Positions 20,331 through 21,474 of a stretch of DNA of 22,192 nt are shown in pieces. This DNA comes from a virus. The DNA is taken from the IMG/VR virus record IMGVR_UViG_3300046491_000458, positions 1-22,192 of that record; one strand, given 5' to 3'. The notes below the pieces were generated by a model. That model had not been told where the DNA came from, searched no databases, and worked only from the letters and a program-made list of their open reading frames with translations. The first letter of the stretch is position 1; each line of letters starts with the position of its first letter. Position numbers and translations under genes: made by a program.

Positions 20331-20633
20331 TCAGGAGTTATTTGGCAAGCAAGCGACGATATTGAAGCCCTGCACGTCGTCGGGGAGAGCGGCATCGTTG
20401 GAAGATCCCTGCTCGCCAACAAGCACGTATCCCCAGCATGAAGCGTCGCTATTCGGCCGATAGAGTCTCAGAGCGACCGGGTCTAATCCTGCTTCATTGA
20501 ACACAATGCTGATGCCTCGATGGTCAACTTTCATCTTGGTAGTGCCGATGCAGAACTCAGCACAGCCGTTTGATGTCGCCTCATCGATCGCGCCAGTGAT
20601 CCCGGCTATTACAGTTTCCATCGCCTTGCTCAT
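20331..20633 (-). CDS. Hypothetical prophage accessory protein, convergent to the endolysin
   Basis: A 100-residue soluble protein on the strand opposite to the late operon. I chose the ATG at 20633, with AAAAGGA about 8 bases upstream; a GTG one codon earlier is also possible. It starts with an amphipathic Ala/Ile-rich helix. The middle carries a beta-like stretch with Cys-Ala-Glu-Phe-Cys-Ile-Gly and Val-Asp-His-Arg-Gly-Ile-Ser-Ile-Val-Phe, and there are four Cys in all. I do not recognise a family. Its stop lies 6 bases from the endolysin stop with no terminator seen between, so the two transcripts could overlap. Position and independent orientation suggest a moron, expressed from the prophage or regulating another phage gene. 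Confidence 0.7.
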   Translation of the reverse strand: MSKAMETVIAGITGAIDEATSNGCAEFCIGTTKMKVDHRGISIVFNEAGLDPVALRLYRPNSDASCWGYVLVGEQGSSNDAALPDDVQGFNIVACLPNNS

Positions 20634-20707
20634 CACAAATTCCTTTTAATAAAAAGATCGACCCTTCTAAATGTTACCTCATGTGATTAAGCACGAGAAG
20701 ACGCTCG

Positions 20708-20857
20708 CATCACGCCAACGACGGCAAGGCGCCCGATCCTACCGGTGGTGCCACGCACTACTACGCGACCACCATGCCAAAGGTTCCGACTTGGATGAAG
20801 GGTGCCACTCAGACCTTGAAGCTCGGTCACCATGTTTTCTTTAAGGATGTGCCGTAA
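20708..20857 (+). pseudogene. C-terminal remnant of a SleB-like cell-wall hydrolase
   Basis: An open stretch of about 50 codons ends in TAA at 20855-20857 and has no start codon or ribosome site; an in-frame stop lies shortly upstream. It reads Asp-Pro-Thr-Gly-Gly-Ala-Thr-His-Tyr-Tyr, then Pro-Thr-Trp, and ends Leu-Gly-His-His-Val-Phe-Phe-Lys. This is the C-terminal signature of SleB-type hydrolases (Hydrolase_2), in which Ala-Thr-His-Tyr-Tyr and Gly-x-His-x-Phe are conserved. The catalytic N-terminal part is absent. It is probably the leftover of a second lysis gene lost by recombination at the accessory end. It lies between two minus-strand genes. Confidence 0.65.
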
Positions 20858-20894
20858 AAGGTCACGCTATGCCTTTTGTTGATAAGGCTCGAAC

Positions 20895-21185
20895 CTACTT
20901 TTCAAGCTGATCATTAATGAAGGAGAGGCGTTGAATCTCGCCCAGTTGTACCGTGGTGTCAGCTTCACGGTTTGCCAGCCAGATGCGAGCTTTCGCCAGG
21001 TTCGCCGATAGCTGGTCGTTCATCTCGACGAGGCCCTCAATATTTTCCCTGGCCGCACGAAGCTCCCGTTTCAACGCCTGAATGTCCTCTTCTAACATGC
21101 TCGCGTAATGCTCGACAGTTTCCAGCCTGGTCGGACTGCCGATCCAGTCGCTGGTGTCTTCGATTTCGTAAGGGTCCACGGTCAT
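20895..21185 (-). CDS. SOS-controlled small coiled-coil protein of unknown function
   Basis: A 96-residue acidic protein. Residues about 22-95 are predicted helix with Leu/Met/Ile in a heptad-like rhythm (Leu-Glu-Glu-Asp-Ile-Gln-Ala-Leu-Lys-Arg-Glu-Leu and later Leu-Ser-Ala-Asn-Leu-Ala-Lys), so it should form a coiled coil. The short N-terminus is Asp/Glu-rich with one Trp. No DNA-binding motif, signal peptide or membrane span is visible. A perfect CTGT-N8-ACAG LexA box lies 12 bases upstream of the ATG (21183-21185), in the presumed promoter. The only purine-rich site is AAGG almost touching the ATG, so the mRNA may be leaderless. It could be an antirepressor or induction factor, or a damage-induced accessory gene; no family is recognised. 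Confidence 0.72.
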   Translation of the reverse strand: MTVDPYEIEDTSDWIGSPTRLETVEHYASMLEEDIQALKRELRAARENIEGLVEMNDQLSANLAKARIWLANREADTTVQLGEIQRLSFINDQLEK

Positions 21186-21197
21186 GCCTTATAGATA

Positions 21198-21213
21198 CTG
21201 TTCGGATATACAG
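21198..21213 (-). promoter_or_regulatory. LexA (SOS) box
   Basis: The 16 bases read CTGT, then 8 bases, then ACAG, which is the full gammaproteobacterial LexA consensus frame, with the flanks TA and TG continuing part of the palindrome. On the minus strand a possible -10 (TATCTA, 21197-21192) directly follows the box and a weak -35 (TCGATC) directly precedes it, so LexA would occupy the promoter spacer. The site faces the 96-residue coiled-coil gene. The forward direction has no gene to serve. Confidence 0.78.
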
Positions 21214-21424
21214 TGATCGAGGCGCGTTGATTGGGCGAGGGTAGAGCGACGAGCAGTTGGGTTTGGGTCTTTGTATTCGGTCGGCAGGACGCCAAGAAAA
21301 AGGAACTACTGTAGGAATATACAACGCTAAGTTGTTGATTCTTATAGGGGCATACCGCTGTTTTGCACTCCTGCTAAAACGCCTATTTATCGTTATAGAT
21401 CAGTTGGTTGCGTAGGTTTCGGGG

Positions 21425-21474
21425 TCACCTTGACATGGTGGGGGTCGTTGGTTCGAGTCCAATCGCGCCTACCA
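21425..21474 (+). other. attR: 3' fragment of tRNA-Val(GAC)
   Basis: These 50 bases fold as the anticodon arm (CACC / GGTG with loop TTGACAT, anticodon GAC), variable loop, T arm (GTTGG, TTCGAGT, CCAAT) and the 3' acceptor strand CGCGCCT with ACCA. The 5' acceptor strand is missing and the D arm is not in register, so it is not a whole tRNA. Integration into the 3' half of a tRNA gene leaves such a fragment at the far end of a prophage, while the intact gene is rebuilt at attL. A D-arm-like run TAGATCAGTTGGTT lies upstream at 21396-21409, but spaced too far for a normal tRNA. Confidence 0.85.

Follow-up and report, generated by a model that had tools for sequence, protein, structure and literature searches.

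The question raised by this locus is whether a small coiled-coil gene, placed behind a LexA box at the edge of a prophage, is a new induction factor or an accessory gene of the response to DNA damage. Both readings were offered in the original prediction, made from the sequence of the window, i.e. the whole stretch of 22,192 nucleotides of virus DNA analysed here, which is a record of IMG/VR. Relatives of the gene were taken from 15 genome loci and 93 viral-contig loci, and a profile search yielded 171 in viral contigs, where relatives taken from metagenomes may be incomplete. The close homologues include a few duplicates of one contig, and 73 are left once redundancy is removed. For distant comparisons, 59 homologues were chosen across the genus, with profile E-values down to about 1e-7. 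The homologues in whole genomes all belong to Pseudomonas.

The gene at the prophage edge

The predicted 96-codon open reading frame, counted from the ATG at 21185 and ending at 20895 on the minus strand, is present in the window (Table 1). Its position at the edge of a Pseudomonas prophage was also supported, by a tRNA remnant, by a module boundary at 21293 and by relatives that carry the gene at the end opposite the integrase. ARAGORN found no complete tRNA. Of the alignments that meet at the boundary, 58 on the gene side begin at 21293 and many on the att side stop at 21277-21283; the junction motif has 109 forward copies versus 1 reverse copy across 155 loci. The strand-biased motif, CCCCGGCGTYCTGCCGACCGAACACC, separates phage-specific direct repeats that resemble att arms from the accessory gene. 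The switch in homology falls exactly at CCCCGGCGTYCTGCCGACCGAACACC, as if two modules were joined there.

The window copy of the gene has been shortened. Comparison with a relative of 99% identity (L017) revealed a single C to T change at 20897 that turns CAG into TAG, a nonsense mutation that costs the window copy its last 11 residues; intact relatives continue with QVRALSTKGIA. The SRAP gene discussed below is absent from the window, and the remnant of a hydrolase gene, with intact relatives in 65 loci, stands downstream of the coiled-coil gene instead. Between this remnant and the endolysin gene is a 101-aa open reading frame (20331-20636, minus strand) with no match in Pfam, PHROG or NCBIfam.

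Table 1. Positions of the features at the attR end of the window.
Feature	Position	Strand	Remarks
tRNA 3' remnant, mark of the attR side	21406..21471	+	Rfam RF00005, 29.2 bits (gathering 29)
Junction motif GGCGTCCTGCC, where att-side and gene-side homologies meet	21283..21293	-	Alignment ends
Upstream promoter element TCGTCGC-N6-CTCGC	21235..21252	-	Fixed distance, 22-40 bp upstream of the box
CTCGATYA, abutting the box	21214..21221	-	Conserved; kept in distant homologues too
LexA box CTGTATATCCGAACAG	21198..21213	-	Conserved; type as in host lexA and recA boxes
Shine-Dalgarno sequence AAGG	21187..21190	-	7 nt before GTG 21179; columns kept in 73 non-redundant homologues
Coiled-coil gene, family A	20895..21179	-	GTG start 21179, 94 codons and TAG stop
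Premature TAG (20897-20895), with in-frame codons VRALSTKGIA and a stop behind it	20862..20897	-	Comparison with L017
C-terminal remnant of convergent cell-wall hydrolase gene	20717..20857	+	Frame ends in NDGKAPDPTGGATHYYATTMPKVPTWMKGATQTLKLGHHVFFKDVP and a stop

LexA box, promoter and start codon

The box, CTGTTCGGATATACAG, is the sole CTGT-N8-ACAG site found when the 22 kb of the window were scanned. We rejected it as proof of a LexA site by itself, since 23 of 100 shuffled sequences also had at least one such site (chance expectation 0.28). It is significant because it is kept across homologues. A perfect box was found in 80 of the 93 scorable close homologues, at a nearly fixed distance, and the remaining 13 differ by one mismatch. 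Among the distant homologues, 50 of 59 have a perfect box upstream, a rate to be compared with 4.5% for 220-bp segments drawn at random from the same DNA. In three Pseudomonas genomes, the host lexA and recA genes have boxes of this type in front (CTGTATATAATCACAG, CTGTATAAAAAGACAG and CTGTATAAGTAGMCAG), and the window gene has its host-type box 18 nt ahead of the conserved start. Given the host-type boxes and their conservation in close and distant homologues, it is very likely that the coiled-coil gene is under direct LexA control. The search for homologues thus went in favor of the original prediction: the box is kept rather than lost.

Conservation extends beyond the box. The TCGTCG core of the upstream element, which may be an activator site, occurs in 24 of 48 distant homologues versus 1.6% in the background. 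A -35 and a -10 hexamer had been proposed on either side of the box (TCGATC and TATCTA, 17-nt spacer). The geometry would allow this, but each hexamer agrees with the consensus in about three of six positions and transcription would then start past the conserved AAGG. We consider that transcription probably starts inside the box or just past it.

The open reading frame stands as predicted, but the conserved start is the GTG at 21179 rather than the ATG at 21185. An ATG or GTG is located at the equivalent of its third codon in all 96 homologues, and box and start are 15-21 nt apart across nearly the whole superfamily. The suggestion that the message is leaderless was rejected on account of this start codon and the Shine-Dalgarno sequence upstream of it; a transcript from the proposed -35 and -10 hexamers would leave the Shine-Dalgarno sequence outside the message.

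A protein family in an exchangeable place, sometimes upstream of SRAP

The homologues, here called family A, are under purifying selection (pN/pS 0.34), the third codon position being the most variable. Their most conserved part is the N-terminal peptide EIEDTSDWLGxPTxLE, in its fuller form M-D-P-x-E-I-E-D-T-S-D-W-L-G-x-P-T, and their C-termini belong to several unrelated coiled-coil types. The AlphaFold2 model of the L017 orthologue consists of a flexible segment (residues 1-17) and a single helix (residues 18-104), with a mean pLDDT of 89. No match above the curated cut-off or with a convincing E-value was obtained for family A in Pfam, PHROGs or NCBIfam, a fold search with its one long helix gave no match, and a search of the literature found no description of the gene. 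The homologues, the predicted helix and the lack of a match in the three family databases bear out the description of the product as a coiled coil of unknown family. Weak Pfam and PDB coiled-coil matches (Sas-6, DUF2508 and metallopeptidase 8i6o) were judged to be due to chance, and the labels "DarA" and "minor tail protein" on relatives in phage records are not backed by any family match. We infer that the conserved flexible peptide could dock onto a partner involved in the handling of DNA damage or in replication in the damaged cell. An SOS transcriptome of P. fluorescens DC206 was reportedly described by Jin in 2007, as cited in PMC2647930.

Of 399 Pseudomonas genomes, at least 123 contain family A, in one to four copies each; this count is a lower bound for which a fraction of the first-look candidates was scored. 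Outside the genus it is almost absent, with 3 of 245 genomes drawn over the order and 1 of 369 drawn over the class, counts that include the starting genome. No match was found in the plasmids searched. Gene and integrase occupy opposite prophage ends in most of 39 phage records. Where the integrase is terminal, the gene has the same direction, with a circular gap of 28 bp to about 9 kb. In PseuP_222, PseuP_224 and VW-6S the gene comes after the integrase, just past it across attP, and in PseuP_222 and VW-6S it is convergent with the lysis genes.

Several other genes were observed in these surroundings. A divergent gene for a D12-type DNA adenine methylase (PF02086) lies about 250 bp upstream in L011, L013, L066, L083, L004 and L089 and has a LexA box of its own, CTGTATATATAAACAG or CTGTATGGATAAACAG; the methylase appears to be another gene of the attR end under SOS control. 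A 69-aa gene (MPNSDLLPSLLxKINENQLALEAAIMEL...), with no family in Pfam, recurs upstream of family A in L003, L019, L008 and others, sometimes in tandem copies and often with the GGCGTYCTGCC motif in front. A LexA box within one mismatch precedes it in 4 of 48 cases and is mostly missing. A further open reading frame behind a LexA-box promoter, at about 6500 in L439, is a possible SOS-controlled prophage gene that we take to be DUF1654-like.

Downstream, a gene for a SRAP protein (YedK/HMCES; PF02586) follows in the same direction within 2-30 nt in 34 of 96 homologues. In a wider set SRAP comes after the gene in 47 of 146 loci, over several C-terminal types, leaving about two thirds of the family A relatives, and the window, without it. 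SRAP acts by capping abasic sites of single-stranded DNA (PMC9436759) and is known from SOS operons and from prophages (PMC3765255). A strict scan of 149 genomes for the promoter pattern hit one place only, upstream of a family A gene. Looser patterns, scanned in viral contigs, uncovered a second family, B, behind the same promoter, upstream element included, in 49 loci (e.g. L316:317-1039 and L480:1133-1855).

Family B proteins are about 241 aa in size (PHROG_19595), have a Cys-rich C-terminus with a conserved CxxC...CxxC pattern and no Pfam family, and are unrelated to family A; their predicted fold (pLDDT 86) resembled nothing in PDB or BFVD at an E-value under 0.001. An intact SRAP gene lies within 120 nt in 24 of 47 family B loci, and the SRAPs behind the two families are about 90% identical. 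From this swap and the similarity of the SRAPs it follows that the first gene is exchanged while the promoter before it and the SRAP behind it stay constant, which favors an accessory cassette of the damage response. Family A and SRAP may share a pathway, although about two thirds of the family A relatives have no SRAP.

Candidate functions and known systems

We consider it reasonably probable that Pseudomonas prophages carry, at their attR end, a small accessory cassette under SOS control, of which the coiled-coil gene is the exchangeable first gene. Host LexA would occupy the box in the lysogen and keep the gene off. DNA damage would remove LexA and give rise to a short transcript from the dedicated promoter, so that the cassette, lying at the prophage end, would be switched on without involvement of the phage repressor. 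This transcript would be translated from GTG 21179 into a rod-like coiled coil with a flexible, conserved N-terminal peptide, through which it may join a lesion-handling or replication protein. Where SRAP is present, it would cap abasic sites in single-stranded DNA, and family B could take the place of the coiled coil, with the promoter unchanged and the SRAP almost so. The gene is more likely a damage-response accessory of the lysogen or phage than a switch that inactivates the phage repressor.

One alternative is that RecA or LexA is the target of the coiled coil, which would damp or prolong the SOS response by binding to it. Such modulators are known, DinI acting on RecA and gp7 of GIL01 on LexA (PMC4551915), and a small SOS-controlled phage protein would suit an autoregulatory logic, as the restriction to Pseudomonas would suit a host-specific partner. 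However, no sequence relation to DinI was found, no tie to RecA or LexA was seen, and the SRAP linkage hints at lesions rather than at a switch, making this explanation rather unlikely.

Also unlikely is a LexA-controlled antirepressor, i.e. a protein made upon damage that binds the phage repressor and thereby triggers lytic growth. The protein is small, its gene is under LexA and outside the immunity region, and the variable C-termini could suit partner-specific antirepressors. The SRAP linkage leaves room for this function, because the LexA-controlled Gifsy operon, with the order dinI-antirepressor-irsA, combines antirepressor and damage-response genes (PMC3121763). However, phages that rely on a LexA-controlled antirepressor have a repressor that is not subject to cleavage (PMC3121763), whereas at least 33 of the 39 carrier phages encode their own S24 repressor of the RecA-cleavable type, of several distinct types; these counts come from relatives, the window's own repressor being located outside the window. 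The Ser-Lys pair is kept in 20 of 20 S24 repressors examined, and an A-G or C-G site is present in 13 of the 20.

Six of the 39 records lack S24 (PF00717), and at least four of these are fragments without the early region: G1193 and G1196 have neither S24 nor integrase, while the records of G1187 and G1191 start within the late region. Being incomplete, these four say nothing on the type of repressor. G1214, in which the integrase is terminal, offers no more than an HTH-like protein of 150 aa that lacks S24. It also speaks against an antirepressor that the conserved part of family A is the N-terminus, common to phages with unrelated repressor types, that an unrelated protein can replace it, and that a comparison with Pfam gave no match above the cut-off to the DinI half of Tum or to an antirepressor domain in 45 members. 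Of the two readings first offered, the new induction factor is thus weakened by the repressor types, the SRAP gene downstream and the family B swap, while the damage-response accessory is favored by them. If the accessory reading is right, it cautions against taking every small LexA-boxed prophage gene for an antirepressor.

A gene induced along with a co-resident prophage to hinder competing phages or host replication would suit the moron-like position, the up to four copies per genome, the exchangeable slot, the variable C-termini and the LexA-boxed Dam gene adjoining in some phages, but is unlikely, with no similarity to defence or toxin genes in Pfam, PHROGs or NCBIfam and no co-evolving partner gene seen.

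Returning to the SOS-controlled accessory cassette, it is conceivable, though we hold it with less than even confidence, that temperate Pseudomonas phages share a site for such cassettes beside attP, consisting of a constant LexA promoter, an exchangeable family A or B gene and often a constant SRAP. At this site the GGCGTYCTGCC junction would join the cassette to integrase-specific att arms, allowing modules to be swapped, and the first gene would represent a hitherto undescribed class of damage-response partners that work together with SRAP at lesions of the phage or host DNA. If the cassette is correctly understood, at least 30% of Pseudomonas species would carry prophage-borne SOS-regulon genes (family A) that have no entry in Pfam, PHROGs or NCBIfam, and carriage of prophages would be tied to the handling of abasic sites or replication stress in damaged Pseudomonas cells. 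Families A and B would then be two new protein families and possible SRAP partners, and phages would have a defined site for the exchange of SOS-controlled cargo.

Among known systems, the replication-initiation control protein YabA has a weak coiled-coil likeness to 4 of 45 members (best E 8e-4), but the window protein scores far under the curated cut-off (15.2 versus 30 bits) and we rejected this identity as a chance coiled-coil match. Tum of phage 186, GfoA and GftA of the Gifsy phages and AntC of N15 are likewise encoded by small, directly LexA-controlled genes outside the immunity region. Family A differs from these in that its carriers mostly have S24-type repressors, that there is no sequence match as judged by Pfam families, that an unrelated gene can stand in its place, and that it lies away from the integrase, at the other end of the prophage. 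The SRAP-containing SOS operons (PMC3765255) resemble the cassette in having SRAP beside SOS-controlled genes, also in prophages. The partners named in the text of that study are UmuCD, ImuAB-DnaE2, DinB and Ku/ligase, with no mention of a coiled coil, whereas in the present loci a dedicated prophage promoter is followed by family A or B and then by SRAP. Finally, the type of LexA box is shared with Pseudomonas lexA and recA, in contrast to which family A is prophage-borne and has the additional element TCGTCGC-N6-CTCGC.
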